Shown one piece after another: positions 16,750-26,502 of a stretch of 39,122 nt of DNA. This stretch comes from Planctomycetota bacterium (GTDB lineage: Bacteria; Planctomycetota; Planctomycetia; Isosphaerales; Isosphaeraceae): NCBI GenBank assembly GCA_021777685.1, contig JAJYDH010000002.1, positions 1 to 39,122 of the forward strand, given 5' to 3'. The notes under the pieces are model-generated. The model did not search any database and was not told where the DNA came from. It saw nothing but the letters and a program-made list of their open reading frames with translations. The first letter of the stretch is position 1. Every line of letters starts with the position of its first letter. The translations under genes were made by a program, and so were the position numbers.

Positions 16750-19599
16750 ATGCTCTGGCATCTCCAAATCGACCCCGCGCCGGGTCAGCTCGACCTCGCC
16801 GGACGGCGGATCGCCGCCGATGCCGCCGAACTCGGCCTGCCCGGCCCCTGGACCGTAGGGGCCTCCCGAGGGTTCCTGATCGAAGGGCCGCTCGACCGTC
16901 CGAGCGTGACGAGGGCCGCCGAGGCCGTACTGGTCGACCCGGTCGTCGAGACGTACTCGATGCGGGGCGTCGATGAATTCCAGGCCGTCGCCTCTTCGAG
17001 CACGGTCGTCCACGTCCTGCCCAAGCCGGGCGTGACCGACCCAGAGGCCGAGAGCGCCCTGGCCCTGCTCCGCGACCTCGGGCTGGCCGTCGAGAACGTC
17101 CGGACGATCCGGACCTATCGCGTCGAGGGGCCGGAAGCATCCCTCCCCCGCCTGATCGGCCGGGTCCTGGCCAACGATGCCGTCGAGCAGGCCGTCGTCG
17201 GCCCCCTGCCCTTCGACCGGCTCGGCCAGGGGACCTCGTACCGCTTCGCCCGGGTCGAGGTGCCGATCCTGGGCAAATCCGACGCCGAATTGCTCGACAT
17301 CAGCCGGAAAGGGCAGCTCCACTTCAGCCTGGCCGAGTTCCGGGCCGTGGAGCGGTACTTCGAGGAACTGGGCCGCGAGCCGACCGACTGCGAGCTGGAG
17401 ACCCTCGCCCAGACCTGGAGCGAGCACTGCTCGCACAAGACCCTCCGGGGGCGGATCGAGTTCGACGGCCGGGCGATCGACAACCTGCTCAAGCAGACCA
17501 TCTTCGGCGCGACCCAGCGGATGGGGCTCGACTGGCTGGTCAGCGTCTTCGCCGACAACGCCGGGGTCGTCCGGTTCGACGAGGATTATGACGTCTGCTT
17601 CAAGGTCGAGACGCACAACCACCCCTCGGCGATCGACCCTTACGGCGGGGCCAACACCGGGCTCGGCGGCGTGATCCGCGATCCGATGGGCACGGGCCTG
17701 GGCGCCAAGCCGATCTGCAACACCGACGTCTTCTGCGTCGCCCCGCCCGACACCCCGGCCGATTCTCTGCCGGCCGGCGTCCTCCACCCGCGCCGGATCT
17801 TGAAGGGGATCGTCGCCGGGGTCCGCGACTACGGCAACCGGATGGGCATCCCGACCGTCAACGGGGCGCTCGTCGGCCATCCCGCCTACCTGGCGAACCC
17901 GCTTGTCTTCTGCGGGACGGTCGGCCTGATCCCCCGGGGGATGTCGACCAAGTCGGTCGAGCCCGGCGACCGGATCGTCGCCATCGGCGGCCGGACCGGC
18001 CGCGACGGCATCCACGGCGCCACGTTCAGCTCGGTCGAACTGACCAGCGAGAGCGAGTCGATCTCCGGCGGCGCCGTCCAGATCGGCAACGCGATCACCG
18101 AGAAGATGGTCCTCGACGTCGTCCTCCAGGCCCGCGATCGCGGCCTCTTCCGCTCGATCACCGACTGCGGCGCCGGCGGGTTCAGCTCGGCCGTCGGCGA
18201 GATGGGGGCCGAACTTGGGGCGGAGGTCGACCTCGACCGCGCCCCGCTCAAATACGAGGGGCTGTCATACACCGAGATCTGGATCTCCGAGGCCCAGGAA
18301 CGGATGGTCCTGGCCGTCCCGCCCGAGAAATGGGCCGAACTTCGGGCTCTCTGCGAGTCGGAAGGGGTCGAGGCGACCGACCTCGGCCGGTTCGTGGATA
18401 CCGGCCGGCTGACCTTGAAATACCACGGCGAGGTCGTCGGCGACCTGTCGATGCACTTCCTCCACGACGGCCGCCCCGCCGTGATCCGCAAGGCGACGTT
18501 CACGCCGGTCGAGCCGAAGCCCCTCGAATTGCCCAACCAGGCCGATTACACGAAGGATCTCCTCGACATCCTCGGCACCTGGGACGTTTGCAGCAAGGAA
18601 TGGATCGTCCGCCAGTACGACCACGAGGTCCAGGCCCGCACCGTGGTCAAGCCGCTGGTCGGGGTGCTCGACGACGGGCCGGGGGATGCGTCGGTTGTCC
18701 TGCCGGTGGCGGGCTCGATGCGAGGGCTGGCGATCTCCTGCGGGATCAACCCGCGTCACGGGCTGATCGACCCCTACGCGATGGCCGGGTGCGTGATCGA
18801 CGAGGCCGTGAGGAACTGCGTGGCCGTCGGCGCCGACCCGGACCGGATCGCGATCCTCGACAACTTCTGCTGGGGCAATACCGAGCGGCCCGAGACGCTG
18901 GGCTCGCTCGTCCGCGCCGCCGAGGGCTGTCGAGACGTGGCGCTGGCCTACGGGACGCCGTTCATCTCGGGCAAGGACAGCCTGTACAACGAATACACGC
19001 ATGAAGGCAAGAGCCTGGCCATCCCGCCGACCCTGCTCATCAGCGCGATGGGCCAGATTCCCGACGTCCGCAAGTGCGTGACGATGGATCTGAAGGAGGC
19101 CGGCAACCTCCTGCTCCTGGTCGGCGAAACGCGCGACGAACTGGGCGGCTCGCACTGGGCGATGGTCCGGGGACTTGAAGGGGGCGATGTTCCCCGGGTG
19201 GACCCCGAGACCGCGCCTCGCATCTTCCGGGCCCTCTACTCGGCCATCTCCCGTGGCCTGGTCCGGTCGTGCCACGACCTGAGCGAAGGGGGCCTGGCCG
19301 TCGCCCTTGCCGAGATGGCCCTCGCGGGCGGCCTGGGCTTGGAGGCGGGGTTCGGCCTGGACCACTCATCCTCGCACCCGGCCTCGTTGCTGTTCTCGGA
19401 GTCGCCGACCCGTTTCGTCCTGGAAGTCCGCCCCGACGCGGTCGCCGAGCTTCGATCCCTGTTCGAGGGGCTGCCGATTGGCGAGGTTGGCACGGTGACA
19501 GACACCCCTCGGCTGGTCGTCCGCCACTCCGAAACGACCCTCATCGATGCACCGCTGTCCGCCCTGAAAGAAGCCTGGCAGGCCCCGCTCCGCTGGTGA
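16750..19599 (+). CDS. purL: Phosphoribosylformylglycinamidine synthase, PurS-PurL fusion type
   Basis: N-terminal PurS-like [74 protein letters not shown]. Confidence 0.93.
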
Positions 19600-21698: not shown

Positions 21699-21771
21699 GG
21701 CCCGTTCGGCTATCGGCACAGGCCACCGCCCCTACCAGGCGGAGAGGAGGGTTCGACTCCCTCACGGGTTA
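21699..21771 (+). tRNA. tRNA-Val(TAC)-like, C33
   Basis: Acceptor GGCCCGT/ACGGGTT (two G:U); stem CCGCC/GGCGG, loop CCTACCA; T-arm GAGGG TTCGACT CCCTC; A73. Confidence 0.6.
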
Positions 21772-21806
21772 CTGATCCGCGCATCGAGTTCGAACGATCC
21801 ACGCAT

Positions 21807-21880
21807 CGGGATGTGGGAAAGCCTGGTAATCCGCCTGCCTTGGGAGCAGGAGACCGCCGGTTCGAATCCGGCCATCCCGA
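21807..21880 (+). tRNA. tRNA-Pro(TGG)
   Basis: CGGGATG/CATCCCG; CCTGC CTTGGGA GCAGG; GCCGG TTCGAAT CCGGC. Confidence 0.9.
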
Positions 21881-21894
21881 CTGACCCGACCGTC

Positions 21895-21966
21895 GCACCG
21901 GTCATCTAGCGGCGAAGATCCCGCGCCCGTAACGCGGCAACGTGGGTTCGAGTCCCACCCGGTGCC
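21895..21966 (+). tRNA. tRNA-Thr(CGT), C33
   Basis: GCACCGG/CCGGTGC; D-stem ATCT/AGAT; CCGCG CCCGTAA CGCGG; GTGGG TTCGAGT CCCAC. Confidence 0.75.
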
Positions 21967-21999
21967 CTCTCGTCTTTGACAATCCGGCCTCGGTGAAGC

Positions 22000-22070
22000 G
22001 TGCCCATGATGTAGCGGAAGCCTGCCGCCTCGCCGTGGCGGAAGTGCGGGTTCGACTCCCGCTGGGCACT
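22000..22070 (+). tRNA. tRNA-Gly(GCC), C33
   Basis: GTGCCCA/TGGGCAC, U73; CCGCC TCGCCGT GGCGG; GCGGG TTCGACT CCCGC; weak D-stem. Confidence 0.7.
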
Positions 22071-22256
22071 TGAAGACAGCCGTGGGACCTCGACGGCGAG
22101 GTCGGATGAACGCCCGAGAACGGAAAACTAAGTGCATCATTGTCAAAGCGAGTGACGTCCGCTAATCTGCACCGTCCGACCCCTCTTTTCGCGAGTTGTC
22201 CCGGCGGGCCTTTTTTCGGCGCGGCGTCTCCGCCCTCCTCCGACAGGGAGTTTGCG

Positions 22257-23999
22257 ATGAAGCACCATCCCGTTTCGATCCGTCTCGCCCTAATTTTGGT
22301 CTTCGCGACCTCAACCGCCCGAGCCCAGGAAGCGCTCGCGCCGGAGACCGCCCGGCGGCTCAAGGATGCGACGGTTTACGTCAAGGTCGCCATCGGGCCG
22401 CTGGCCCTGTCGGGCTCGGGGTTCGTGATCGAGTCGACCGGGGATTCGGCCCTGATCGTGACCAATCAGCATGTCGTCGTGAAGCCCAAGGTCCTCGCCC
22501 CCGGCGGATTCATCCCGGGCCTTCGCGGTCGCGACCGGCTCGCGCTGTCCATGATCCAGCGGACGTTGGCGGCCAATGAGCCCGTCATCTCGGCGGTCCT
22601 CAACAGCGGCGAGCCCAACGAGCAGGTGGTCAAGGCCGAGGTGCTCTGCCAGGTGGAGGACCCCGACCTGGCCGTGCTCAAGGTCACGGGCCTGAAGGGT
22701 GCCCCGAAGCCGATCGAGTTCCGCCAGACGACCCCGCTCTCGGAGACGATGCCGGTCCTGATCCTCGGTTTCCCGTTCGGGGACACGCTCGCGACGAACA
22801 AGGGCAACCCGAATATCACGATCGGCAAGGGTTCGGTCTCGAGCATCCACAGGGACAAGTCGGGCAAGGTGACCAAGGTCCAGATCGACGGGGCCATCAA
22901 CCCGGGCAACAGCGGCGGCCCGGTGGTCGACGCCAAGGGGAACCTGATCGGGATCTCGGTGCAGGCCATCCAGGGGAGCAACATCGGCCTGGCGATCCCC
23001 GCCGGCGAGGTCCACGCGATGCTGGATGGGAGCCTGGGCCGGCCCTCGATCGCGGCGACCCCGTCCGTCAACGGCGCCCCGCCCAAATACGAGATCCTGG
23101 TGCCGGTGATCGACCCGATGAAGAAGCTCAAGTCGGCCACCGTGCAGTACGTCCTCAAGCCGATCCCGGCGGATGCGAGCCGGTCCGGCCAGTTCCAGCT
23201 TTCCTCCGACGCGGCGCTCAAGAAGCTCGACCTGGCCCCGAAGGGCGGGATCGCCCGGGTCGACCTGTCGCTCGACCCGAAGGCCGCGCCGACGATCAAG
23301 CAGGTCACCGTCCAGGCGTCTTACGTCAACGGCGAGGGGAAGACGGTCTATCTCAATCCGCAGGTCGTGACCATCCCGGCGGCGGTCCAGGTGACGAGGG
23401 CCGCCGGGGGAACCACCACGACGACCAGGACCGAGGGCGGGACCACGACCACGACCACGACGAAGACCGAGGGTGGCGTCACCACGACGACCACCGAGAC
23501 CGTGGGCCCCGACGGGCGGACGAGCCGCCGTCAGACGACATCGACTCGCGGAGGCTCGTCGGGCAATCCGCCGGCGACCTCGGGGGCCGGCAAGGGCCTG
23601 GCCCTCAAGGTCGGCGACAAGGCGATGGTGACCTGGGCGGGCAAGGCCGTGACCGCCGAGGTCGTCGGCTTCGCCGCCACGGGCTGGGTCAAGGTGAAGT
23701 TCCCCTTCAACGGCATCGAGCTGACGCCCACCCTCCCCCCGGACCAGGTGAAGCTGATCGCCGAGAAGAAGAAATCGCCGCCGGCCGGGGCTACCCTGCG
23801 GACCTGGGCGAGCAAGGGGAACAAGTTCACGATCAAGGCGAAGTTCGTCGAGCTGAAGGACGACTCGCTCACCCTCGAAAAAGAGGACGGCGAGGCCGTG
23901 ACCCTCTCGCTCGACAAGCTGACCGAGGCCGACCAGAAGGCGGCCCGCCAGCTCGCCGACGAGTCGGAAGAGAACCCCTTCGCCACCAAGCCCCGGTAA
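22257..23999 (+). CDS. Secreted trypsin-like serine protease with Thr-rich repeat and C-terminal SHD1-like domain
   Basis: VTNQHVVVKP, DPDLAVLKV, AINPGNSGGPVVD; TTTTRTEGGTTTTTTTKTEGGVTTTT; RTWASKGNKFTIKAKFVELKDDSLTLEKEDGEAVTLSLDKLTEADQKAAR. Confidence 0.85.
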   Translation: MKHHPVSIRLALILVFATSTARAQEALAPETARRLKDATVYVKVAIGPLALSGSGFVIESTGDSALIVTNQHVVVKPKVLAPGGFIPGLRGRDRLALSMIQRTLAANEPVISAVLNSGEPNEQVVKAEVLCQVEDPDLAVLKVTGLKGAPKPIEFRQTTPLSETMPVLILGFPFGDTLATNKGNPNITIGKGSVSSIHRDKSGKVTKVQIDGAINPGNSGGPVVDAKGNLIGISVQAIQGSNIGLAIPAGEVHAMLDGSLGRPSIAATPSVNGAPPKYEILVPVIDPMKKLKSATVQYVLKPIPADASRSGQFQLSSDAALKKLDLAPKGGIARVDLSLDPKAAPTIKQVTVQASYVNGEGKTVYLNPQVVTIPAAVQVTRAAGGTTTTTRTEGGTTTTTTTKTEGGVTTTTTETVGPDGRTSRRQTTSTRGGSSGNPPATSGAGKGLALKVGDKAMVTWAGKAVTAEVVGFAATGWVKVKFPFNGIELTPTLPPDQVKLIAEKKKSPPAGATLRTWASKGNKFTIKAKFVELKDDSLTLEKEDGEAVTLSLDKLTEADQKAARQLADESEENPFATKPR

Positions 24000-24128
24000 G
24001 AGCCCGCGACCGCGACCGAGCAGAGTGCGGGTTGCCCGCCGACCTTCCCCATCAATCCAGGGAGGGCCGGCGGCGTGCATCCTGCTGGAATCCGCCCTCG
24101 GACATCTCCCGACCGACTCCCGATCAAG

Positions 24129-24203
24129 ACCGGGGTTGGATGAGTTGGTTCATCCGCCTCCCTGTTAAGGAGGATCGCGCAGGCTCGATTCCTGCCCCCG
24201 GTG
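24129..24203 (+). tRNA. tRNA-Asn(GTT)
   Basis: ACCGGGG/CCCCGGT, G73; GGAT/ATCC; CCTCC CTGTTAA GGAGG; GCAGG CTCGATT CCTGC. Confidence 0.85.
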
Positions 24204-24223
24204 CTGTCCTCGCGCGACTCTTC

Positions 24224-24307
24224 GGAAGGGCAAGCCAATCGGAGATGGCAGCCGTTTCGAAAACGGCCGAGCGTTGAGCCTTGGGGGTTCGACTCCCTCC
24301 CCTTCCG
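24224..24307 (+). tRNA. tRNA-Ser(CGA)
   Basis: GGAAGGG/CCCTTCC, G73; GCCGT TTCGAAA ACGGC; long variable arm. Confidence 0.85.
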
Positions 24308-24319
24308 CCTCGACTCCAC

Positions 24320-24391
24320 GCGTCCCCGGCCGATCGGCCGAGGCGCCGGCATTCCGGACCGGACGGGCGGGTTCAACCCGCGCGGGACGCA
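24320..24391 (+). tRNA. tRNA-Gly(TCC)-like
   Basis: GCGTCCC/GGGACGC; CCGGC ATTCCGG ACCGG (31-39 mismatch); T-stem with one mismatch. Confidence 0.55.
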
Positions 24392-24392
24392 C

Positions 24393-24463
24393 TCGGGGAT
24401 CGGCCAACGGCAGGCCGCCCGGCCTTGGACCGGGCGATGGAGGTTCAAATCCTCCTCCCCGAA
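24393..24463 (+). tRNA. tRNA-Gln(TTG), C33
   Basis: TCGGGGA/TCCCCGA (U1-A72); CCCGG CCTTGGA CCGGG; GGAGG TTCAAAT CCTCC. Confidence 0.8.
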
Positions 24464-24507
24464 CCTGATGATGTCCAGACGTGTCAAAACCGACGAAGCG
24501 ACGATGA

Positions 24508-24582
24508 TCCGGGGCGGTTGCTGCTGGTAGTGACGCCGCGCTCTGAACGCGGAGGCCGCTGGTTCGATTCCAGCCCCCGGAA
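24508..24582 (+). tRNA. tRNA-Gln(CTG)
   Basis: TCCGGGG/CCCCGGA; CCGCG CTCTGAA CGCGG; GCTGG TTCGATT CCAGC. Confidence 0.85.
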
Positions 24583-24609
24583 CTCGCGAAGGACCGATCG
24601 GAATGACCC

Positions 24610-24683
24610 GTCCGGGTACGCCAACCGGCCGAGCGGCCCGGCTTAAAACCGGGTGCCTGTGGGTTCGAATCCCACCCCGGGCA
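24610..24683 (+). tRNA. tRNA-Leu(TAA), short variable loop
   Basis: GTCCGGG/CCCGGGC; CCCGG CTTAAAA CCGGG; variable TGCCT; GTGGG TTCGAAT CCCAC. Confidence 0.75.
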
Positions 24684-24712
24684 GTCTCGACGGCGCGGTT
24701 CGAAGCATGCCT

Positions 24713-24786
24713 GGCTCGGTAGGCAACCGGCAGACCACTCTCGTCCAGACCGAGAGATGCTGAGGGTTCGAATCCCTCCTGAGCCA
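24713..24786 (+). tRNA. tRNA-Leu(CAG), C33, short variable loop
   Basis: GGCTCGG/CTGAGCC; TCTCG TCCAGAC CGAGA; variable GATGCT; GAGGG TTCGAAT CCCTC. Confidence 0.7.
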
Positions 24787-24799
24787 CTCGGGTCGACAC

Positions 24800-24874
24800 G
24801 CCCTCGCGGAGCAGCCCGGAGTGCTCGCCACCCCGTCAAGGTGGAGGCCGTGGGTTCAAATCCCACCGGGGGCG
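24800..24874 (+). tRNA. tRNA-Asp(GTC), C33
   Basis: GCCCTCG/CGGGGGC, G73; GAGC/GCTC; CCACC CCGTCAA GGTGG; GTGGG TTCAAAT CCCAC. Confidence 0.85.
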
Positions 24875-24894
24875 CTGGATGGAAGATGGACCAC

Positions 24895-24976
24895 GCGTCG
24901 GCCGGGCATGGGCGAGCCCCGGTGTCTGTAGCACACCCGCCTTCGGGCTCTGGCGGTTCGACTCCGTCCCGACGCA
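24895..24976 (+). tRNA. tRNA-Tyr(GTA)
   Basis: GCGTCGG/CCGACGC; GGTGT CTGTAGC ACACC; long variable arm; GGCGG TTCGACT CCGTC. Confidence 0.85.
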
Positions 24977-24998
24977 TCTTCGATCGCGAGGGCTCATC

Positions 24999-25066
24999 CC
25001 CAGGCGAGCAGGCGCCCCGCCGGCCCTCATGAGGTCGGCTTTCCGGTTCGAGTCCGGGGCCTGGGA
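24999..25066 (+). tRNA. tRNA-Met/Ile2 (CAT)
   Basis: CCCAGGC/GCCTGGG; CGGCC CTCATGA GGTCG; TCCGG TTCGAGT CCGGG; compact 68 nt, weak D-arm. Confidence 0.65.
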
Positions 25067-25069
25067 CTT

Positions 25070-25137
25070 CGCGGGCGGGCCGGCGCCCGGCCGAGTTTCA
25101 TACGCTCGGCGGATGGGGTCGACTCCCATGCCCGCAA
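25070..25137 (+). tRNA. tRNA-Met(CAT), initiator-like C1xA72
   Basis: CGCGGGC/GCCCGCA with 1-72 mismatch; CGAGT TTCATAC GCTCG; ATGGG GTCGACT CCCAT. Confidence 0.65.
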
Positions 25138-25150
25138 TTCCTCCATCGTC

Positions 25151-25224
25151 GGCCGGGTAGGCAAACAGGCAAAGCCGCCAATCTGAGGGGTTGGTGCGTA
25201 TGGGTTCGATTCCCATCCCGGCCA
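25151..25224 (+). tRNA. tRNA-Leu(GAG), short variable loop
   Basis: GGCCGGG/CCCGGCC; CCAAT CTGAGGG GTTGG; variable TGCGT; ATGGG TTCGATT CCCAT. Confidence 0.7.
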
Positions 25225-25236
25225 CTCATCAAGGAA

Positions 25237-25307
25237 CGTCCCCTGGTCCAACGGCAAGGCGCCCGGCTTACATCCGGGAGACGGGGGTTCGATTCCCTCG
25301 GGGATGA
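25237..25307 (+). tRNA. tRNA-Val(TAC)
   Basis: CGTCCCC/GGGGATG; CCCGG CTTACAT CCGGG; GGGGG TTCGATT CCCTC. Confidence 0.85.
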
Positions 25308-25326
25308 CTCTCGGTCTCGCGTCGAC

Positions 25327-25398
25327 GGGCGGCTCGTCTCAACGGGAAGACACCCGGCCTGCAACCGGGAGATCGGGGTTCGACTCCCCGGCCGTCCA
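25327..25398 (+). tRNA. tRNA-Ala(TGC), C33
   Basis: GGGCGGC/GCCGTCC with G3:U70; GTCT/AGAC; CCCGG CCTGCAA CCGGG; CGGGG TTCGACT CCCCG; A73. Confidence 0.85.
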
Positions 25399-25415
25399 CT
25401 CCCGGATGTTGGAAC

Positions 25416-25505
25416 GGAAGGCGGCCGGATACGGCTCGCCGGGCCTCACTGCTAACGAGTGCGCCCCCTCCGGGGGGCATGAGGGTTCGAATCCCTCGCC
25501 TTCCG
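25416..25505 (+). tRNA. tRNA-Ser(GCT)
   Basis: GGAAGGC/GCCTTCC, G73; loop CTGCTAA in a weak stem; long variable arm GCCCCCTCCGGGGGGC; GAGGG TTCGAAT CCCTC. Confidence 0.75.
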
Positions 25506-25533
25506 CTGTCACGGGCGATCGAAAGGGGGACAC

Positions 25534-25986
25534 GTGCGGTCGGACATGGACAAGGTGCTGGTGGAACGCCCGCGAGGCGGGGCCGGATATGCCGGCAAGG
25601 GGTATCGCAAGGAGCTGCAACGCACCCCTCCCGAGGAGTGGCGGGGCCGCGAGGGGATGAAGGCCCGCTGGCGAGGCGGCTCGAAGCACTTCAGCGACCA
25701 CCTCGGCCCGCTCAGCCGGTTCTTGCTCTCAAACGTCGGCCGGCCGTGGGACCTCGTCTACTCGGAGATCTGCGAGGGGACGCGCCGGGGGTTCCCGGTC
25801 CGCGAGCACTTCCTGGTCCACGTGTTCCAGTTCGTCGAGAGGAGCGCGATCCTCGTCGACGGCGTCCCCTGCCACGGCCGGGGCAACGCCTACGGGACAC
25901 CGCTGTCGAATTACGGCGGGCGATCTCTCTACATCTGCCCCAGGACCGGGCTCCTCAGGAGGGTCCCGGTGCGGGATCGGCGATAG
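25534..25986 (+). CDS. Uncharacterised protein embedded in the tRNA array
   Basis: GTG start with GGGGGA RBS; MRSDMDKVLVERPRGGAGYAGKGYRKELQRTPPEEWRGREGMKARWRGGSKHFSDHLGPLSRFLLSNVGRPWDLVYSEICEG...; basic, coherent protein sequence. Confidence 0.75.
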   Translation: MRSDMDKVLVERPRGGAGYAGKGYRKELQRTPPEEWRGREGMKARWRGGSKHFSDHLGPLSRFLLSNVGRPWDLVYSEICEGTRRGFPVREHFLVHVFQFVERSAILVDGVPCHGRGNAYGTPLSNYGGRSLYICPRTGLLRRVPVRDRR

Positions 25987-26002
25987 CGACGATTTGAAAC
26001 GA

Positions 26003-26086
26003 GAAAGGGCCACCCGATCGGAGTCGGGACCCGCTTGGAAGGCGGGCGAGCGATGAGCCTTGCGGGTTCGACTCCCGCCCCTTCCA
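26003..26086 (+). tRNA. tRNA-Ser(GGA)
   Basis: GAAAGGG/CCCTTCC (2-71 mismatch); CCCGC TTGGAAG GCGGG; long variable arm; GCGGG TTCGACT CCCGC. Confidence 0.75.
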
Positions 26087-26120
26087 CTCCGAGGCCGCGC
26101 GTCGCGGCCTCGGTTTCGAC

Positions 26121-26193
26121 GGTGCCCGTGGTGTAACGGCAGCACGCGAGATTGTGGATCTCGCGGCGGTGGGTTCGACTCCCCCCGGGCACC
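26121..26193 (+). tRNA. tRNA-His(GTG)
   Basis: G-1; GTGCCCG/CGGGCAC, C73; CGAGA TTGTGGA TCTCG; T-stem with one mismatch. Confidence 0.85.
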
Positions 26194-26263
26194 CTCTCCC
26201 GATTCCGCCGACAACGACGGGCCGGCGGGCCGCCGCCGTCGAGGCCACCAGCCGACAGTTCAC

Positions 26264-26333
26264 AGGGGCGTCCTCCTGGGAGAGGACTCCGTCTCCAAAG
26301 CGGATGGACCGGGTTCAAATCCTGGCGCCCCTG
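26264..26333 (+). tRNA. tRNA-Trp(CCA)
   Basis: AGGGGCG/CGCCCCT, G73; TCCGT CTCCAAA GCGGA; CCGGG TTCAAAT CCTGG. Confidence 0.85.
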
Positions 26334-26353
26334 CTCTCTTCGATCGCTCGTAA

Positions 26354-26425
26354 GCCCTCGGGGTGTGACGGATGGCATGCGACGCTTCGAACGTCGCGGA
26401 CCGGGTTCGATTCCTGGCGAGGGTA
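26354..26425 (+). tRNA. tRNA-Arg(TCG)
   Basis: GCCCTCG/CGAGGGT; CGACG CTTCGAA CGTCG; CCGGG TTCGATT CCTGG. Confidence 0.85.
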
Positions 26426-26430
26426 TTGAA

Positions 26431-26502
26431 GTCCTCGGAGTGTGGCGGATGGCACGCGACCCCGCGAAGGTCGAAGGCCGGGTTCGACTCCCGGCGAGGG
26501 CA
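26431..26502 (+). tRNA. tRNA-Arg(GCG), C33
   Basis: GTCCTCG/CGAGGGC; CGACC CCGCGAA GGTCG; CCGGG TTCGACT CCCGG. Confidence 0.75.

Follow-up and report, generated by a model that had tools for sequence, protein, structure and literature searches.

What is a protein gene doing inside a dense run of tRNA genes, and is it a gene at all? The question is raised by a 39,122-nucleotide stretch of DNA (the window; contig G000:C125), chromosomal-looking and taken from an assembly that is 82% complete, in which a short open reading frame separates two serine tRNA genes. We use the name HOM for this 150-aa protein gene and for its family. Its immediate surroundings are:

25416..25506, + strand: tRNA-Ser(GCT), 5' neighbour of HOM (ARAGORN; Rfam sees only a tRNA-Sec-like match, 33 bits)
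25521..25533, + strand: purine-rich, RBS-like stretch AAAGGGGGACAC before the GTG (read from the sequence by eye, no statistical test)
25534..25986, + strand: HOM, 150 aa, GTG start, TAG stop (ORF call, homologs, conservation)
26003..26087, + strand: tRNA-Ser(GGA), 3' neighbour of HOM (ARAGORN, Rfam)

A preliminary description of the locus had proposed a GTG-started frame for a basic protein, equipped with a good ribosome-binding site, co-oriented with the tRNA genes and set 28 nt behind tRNA-Ser(GCT) and 16 nt ahead of tRNA-Ser(GGA). The frame exists as claimed, follows a purine-rich stretch and runs in the direction of all 23 tRNAs of the array; the 16-nt gap is exact, while the gap to tRNA-Ser(GCT) measures 27 nt by ARAGORN. 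The product is strongly basic (28 K+R versus 15 D+E, pI 10.5). GC content by codon position is 0.67/0.51/0.90, giving a GC3 of 0.90. Compared with a 65%-identical sister copy, differences fall 38/34/85 across the three codon positions, with dN 0.26 and dS 2.5; the resulting dN/dS is about 0.11, far from the value near 1 that had been set as speaking against the proposed role. Homologs with 35-67% identity were found in many genomes, and in a sister genome of the same genus (G001) HOM occupies the identical slot, in the order Tyr-Met-Met-Leu-Val-Ala-[Ser]-HOM-Ser(GGA)-His. Homology, GC3 and dN/dS rule out a chance ORF, and HOM is a real, conserved gene.

The array that carries HOM comprises 23 tRNA genes, all on the + strand, within 4.8 kb (21699-26502; ARAGORN):

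21699..22070, + strand: tRNA block 1, Val, Pro, Thr, Gly (ARAGORN)
22140..23999, + strand: trypsin-like protease with an SHD1 domain, in the Gly-Asn gap
24129..25506, + strand: tRNA block 2, Asn, Ser, Gln, Gln, Leu, Leu, Asp, Tyr, Met, Met, Leu, Val, Ala, Ser(GCT) (ARAGORN)
26003..26502, + strand: tRNA block 3, Ser(GGA), His, Trp, Arg, Arg (ARAGORN)

The protease gene is probably unrelated cargo or an insertion. Elsewhere in the genome, 42 dispersed tRNA genes exceed the Rfam threshold with a median of 67 bits, against a median of 48 bits for the 16 array tRNAs that pass it (p = 1e-6, Mann-Whitney). The array thus represents a redundant, divergent second tRNA set, with many close, co-oriented genes duplicating the dispersed ones. 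Ordinary genes flank it: purL/purQ, an NYN-domain gene, an SDR, a glycosyltransferase, UPF0047, MgsA and a kinase-TPR gene.

Many members of the window's family have a syntenic array, with as many as 37 tRNAs, and protein cargo occupies fixed slots in these arrays. An HNH endonuclease gene fills the His-Trp gap in five related genomes (G001, G029, G015, G031 and G018); in the window that gap is empty and the HNH gene is missing. In another genome (G028), a GNAT acetyltransferase gene takes exactly the slot of HOM. Within the family, array-borne HOM is restricted to the window's genus, where it was found in two genomes, and since the other genera of the family have the array without it, HOM is optional. 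One of the five HNH-bearing genomes, G029, has a 37-tRNA array that continues into a YrlA-like RNA (49.7 bits, E = 2.6e-8) and then a Ro60 gene (TROVE and vWA_Ro60). The window's array holds no YrlA or other Y RNA and no sarcin-ricin mimic, and none of rtcB, rtcA, Ro60 or a Y RNA lies beside its HOM.

L114:8939-11081: end of the G029 array, Y RNA-like RNA and Ro60
L114:6233-6847; L013:1055-1678 (- strand); L120:4260-4871 (- strand); L121:4087-4701 (- strand); L124:4473-5066: array HNH genes

To what family does HOM belong? Two motifs singled out beforehand, DKVLVERPR and LGPLSRFLLSNVGRPWDLVYSEI, proved to be the most conserved stretches of the family, and residues E11, R12, R14, K51, P59, R62, L64, G69, W72, E78, H92, H96, Y133 and P136 are invariant or nearly so. 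Most members are 230-250 aa long, with a family median pI of 10.1; the N-terminal domain alone is present in the window, G001, G029, Novosphingobium and the planctomycete G1019. The preliminary description had pointed to a conserved family of unknown function, and homologs do exist; the libraries searched (Pfam, NCBIfam and PHROG) gave no match for the window's HOM or 28 members, nor any HNH motif or family match, and current libraries thus leave the family blank and without a name. No PDB entry matched HOM by sequence. The structural model of the window's HOM, of moderate confidence (pLDDT 77, pTM 0.63), places three helices (53-66, 72-82 and 90-100) before two beta hairpins. Foldseek returned no significant PDB fold match for this model or that of a full-length member, and among known folds no RNA-binding fold was recognised; the full-length model matched one unnamed phage protein (BFVD A0A6J5RRD0, E = 2.4e-4).

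The family is patchily spread over Planctomycetota, Cyanobacteria, Alphaproteobacteria and phage Mx1. An early profile detected it in 9 of 394 genomes of a phylum sample, and a better profile in 33 of 397 genomes of a class sample; among Cyanobacteria it occurs in 16 of 341 genomes. Two proteobacterial megaplasmids carry it when other family members serve as query, a plasmid search with the window protein itself having given no match. In the phage search, Myxococcus phage Mx1 was the only carrier.

Linkage to tRNA genes recurs beyond the window's genus. In Cyanobacteria a tRNA lies no more than 1 kb from HOM at 11 of 17 loci, in many cases 35-42 nt past the stop codon; the anticodons differ, and two of the loci are 32-tRNA arrays (L074 and L075). 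A rough binomial estimate for this adjacency, which ignores relatedness and assumes background rates, is about 1e-13. Three genomes of another planctomycete family (f3) have seven tRNAs followed by HOM (G847), HOM between tRNA-Arg and tRNA-Thr with half a tRNA just upstream (G949), and a weak tRNA preceding HOM (G821). Phage Mx1 has HOM, Ro60 and a region rich in tRNAs. On the HOM tree the tRNA-linked label changes 9 times, and supported branches force at least 6 of these changes, so no single event passed down unchanged accounts for the linkage; the count fits one gain with repeated losses as well as several gains. Of some 40 planctomycete homologs, about 32 lack both kinds of neighbour, tRNA genes and rtcB, within the stretch covered.

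On a Dolichospermum plasmid (L038:9418-10510), the tRNA-like genes flanking HOM appear by eye to have one common acceptor stem, TTACATA/TGTGTGA, and one of them is a Ser(TGA) without a long variable arm. These genes may encode tRNA mimics.

A second association is with RNA repair. In four loci (G362, G322, Novosphingobium and G1019) rtcB is the next gene downstream of HOM, so that the pair recurs in more than one unrelated locus; the rough binomial here is 3e-8, again ignoring relatedness and assuming background rates. In G362, an RtcR gene (PF06956, 3e-72) on the opposite strand is followed by a PIN gene and then by HOM-RtcB, with a sigma54-like TGGCACTCTTCGCGCA 39 nt 5' of HOM. Three loci have about as many sigma54-like sites as chance predicts, and the window has fewer; the position of the one in G362 is alone suggestive. 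In G322 the genes are spread over two contigs, one reading Ro60, three YrlA RNAs (63, 61 and 48 bits), HD and the N-terminal part of HOM up to the contig end, and the other the C-terminal part of HOM, RtcB, PDDEXK and RtcA; the two HOM pieces presumably form one gene. The Novosphingobium megaplasmid carries HOM-RtcB2-PrfH-HD-PhyH together with RtcR, Ro60, a YrlA RNA (68.8 bits, E = 9e-14) and RtcB, and G1019 has HOM-RtcB2-PrfH, with proteins 72% and 64% identical to those of Novosphingobium. Such identity across phyla suggests that the HOM-RtcB2-PrfH module has moved between them.

L039:7905-16402 and L171:5742-7980: HOM-RtcB2-PrfH modules (Novosphingobium megaplasmid, planctomycete)

In nine cyanobacterial loci the gene next after HOM encodes a VWA protein of about 500 aa (PF05762, 3e-6), which may be Ro60-like; the TROVE profile did not reach it. 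We do not take the weak YrlA matches 5' of cyanobacterial HOMs (27-37 bits) as established, since two other places in the arrays score alike, at about 25 bits.

Cyanobacterial HOM and tRNA-array loci contain other elements. A conserved RNA of about 200 nt joins an exact sarcin-ricin loop, AGTACGAGAGGA, to the 23S GTPase-associated centre (Rfam LSU positions 1093-1148, E down to 7e-13). The two parts lie about 60-100 nt apart, versus about 1.6 kb in 23S rRNA, and at 9 predicted pairs one or more of six sequences shows a compensatory change. This RNA looks like a mimic or decoy of the ribosomal factor site. Near HOM in these arrays is also an extra gene for ribosomal protein L7/L12. Cyanobacterial HOM loci further have in common a gene of about 71 aa, a ThiF/E1-like gene and a 281-aa gene without known function, possibly a ubiquitin-like (PRTRC-like) module.

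L074:13690-13925 (- strand); L075:4210-4450 and 16850-17090; L063:5775-6010 (- strand); L067:6735-6975 (- strand); L059:13500-13740: sarcin-ricin/GTPase-centre RNA of about 200 nt
L075:10741-11160; L074:2348-2740 (- strand); L059:10245-10631; L060:10395-10637 (- strand): extra L7/L12 genes
L067:4991-10749 (- strand): genes of about 71 aa, ThiF/E1-like and 281 aa

What, then, does HOM do? It probably helps in the repair or replacement of damaged translation RNAs. More specifically, we favour, with modest confidence, an accessory of Rtc/Ro60-type RNA-repair systems, most likely a basic RNA-binding protein, which in the window is carried as cargo of a backup tRNA array. Its task would be to recognise tRNA or rRNA that has been damaged, or to keep such RNA in place for ligation by RtcB or for quality control through Ro60 with Y RNA. 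As array cargo, it would be made alongside the backup tRNAs in response to damage to the main set or to stalled translation. Co-transcription with the tRNAs, RNA binding and the kind of substrate are what we infer from these arrangements, and by analogy with the Anabaena trn operon the array may be induced by translation stress. The preliminary description had suspected an array-linked RNA-binding or repair factor and proposed that homolog neighbourhoods be tabulated. In that tabulation tRNA genes appear in cyanobacterial arrays and in another planctomycete family, and rtcB adjoins four homologs together with Ro60, Y RNA, RtcR, RtcA or PrfH. The linkage to arrays and to repair thus stands; it does not extend to the planctomycete homologs, about 32 of roughly 40, that have neither neighbour in the stretch covered. 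What weakens the repair-accessory reading most is that the majority of planctomycete homologs lie apart from such genes and that neither rtcB nor Ro60 was seen in the window's own genome (82% complete), so HOM there would act alone or with unassembled genes. Its optional place in the array, the lack of a recognised RNA-binding fold and the missing C-terminal half of the window form also count against it.

The conserved residues allow another reading, which we regard as unlikely: HOM could itself be an RNase, either a toxin or an enzyme that processes tRNA or rRNA, with the linked backup tRNAs and RtcB making good the damage it does. H92, H96, K51, R12, R14, R62, E78 and Y133 would then form a metal-independent active site, for which such an invariant His/Lys/Arg/Tyr set is typical; toxins and repair ligases frequently travel together, and a PIN gene lies beside one HOM-RtcB pair. 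But HOM is the first gene of RtcR/RtcB/PrfH operons, which puts it on the repair side, no antitoxin-like partner recurs at HOM loci, no RNase fold was found for the models, and RNA binding explains the conserved basic residues equally well. The position upstream of rtcB, at the operon head in four loci, could instead mark a regulator, or a stress factor associated with ribosomes, whose part is to sense damaged RNA or stalled ribosomes and not to join in repair, in keeping with the extra L7/L12 gene and the rRNA mimic linked to HOM in Cyanobacteria; we give this slightly less weight, since two of the four rtcB loci already have RtcR as regulator and neither an HTH nor a ribosomal fold was detected in HOM. 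About as improbable is a selfish array cargo such as a homing-type DNA endonuclease, like the HNH genes of the other slot: fixed slots do hold HNH (five genomes, His-Trp), GNAT (G028, in HOM's slot) or HOM (one genus), HOM adjoins an HNH gene in G837 and its distribution is patchy, but none of 28 members has an endonuclease motif or family match, and this reading leaves unexplained why HOM associates with RtcB, Ro60 and PrfH away from arrays.

A wider proposal, which we put forward only tentatively, is that the redundant tRNA arrays of Planctomycetota and Cyanobacteria may be stress islands that replace, decoy and repair translation RNAs, with divergent tRNAs, Ro60 and Y RNA, the cyanobacterial sarcin-ricin/GTPase-centre RNA with a spare L7/L12, and HOM tying the array to RtcB/PrfH-type repair. 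The purpose of large redundant tRNA arrays and the substrate of many Rtc/Ro60 operons are largely open questions, and HOM, present in both settings across several phyla and a phage, offers a testable bridge between them. Such a bridge would mean that, when toxins cleave RNA or drugs target the ribosome, a single response draws on arrays for spare tRNAs and on Rtc for repair.

Rtc/Ro60 repair operons and tRNA arrays are each of known kinds. As far as we have checked, the HOM family is apparently undescribed, and so is its occurrence with both tRNA arrays and RNA repair, although a prior mention is possible, for example in the survey of Burroughs and Aravind (2016) or in PMC6514570, which mentions unnamed charged proteins ('RFR') associated with RFH/RtcB. 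In the Rtc operons described so far, rtcBA is under RtcR control, with Ro60/rsr and YrlA Y RNAs (PMC7790460). The likeness lies in the four HOM homologs directly 5' of rtcB, two of these loci having Ro60 and YrlA and two RtcR; unlike the established components, HOM is not a known part of Rtc, and in the window its place is within a tRNA array, away from any rtcB. PrfH-RtcB systems counter ribotoxins, and RtcB2-PrfH protects against colicin E3 (PMC9223846); HOM-RtcB2-PrfH in Novosphingobium and planctomycete G1019 resembles these RFH ribosome-repair modules (PMC9223846, PMC6514570). HOM resembles the HNH endonucleases of tRNA arrays, which in five related genomes are likewise encoded among the tRNAs of this array, but the slot differs and the sequences show no similarity. 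Closest to the arrays themselves are the Anabaena trn operon and other cyanobacterial and mycobacterial arrays, likewise dense, redundant and divergent second tRNA sets with HNH genes nearby (PMC10272220, PMC5966550). The trn operon is moreover co-regulated with rtcB, both being repressed by TrcR, and is induced by translation-targeting antibiotics (PMC10272220). The planctomycete arrays differ in being chromosomal and family-wide and in carrying HOM.
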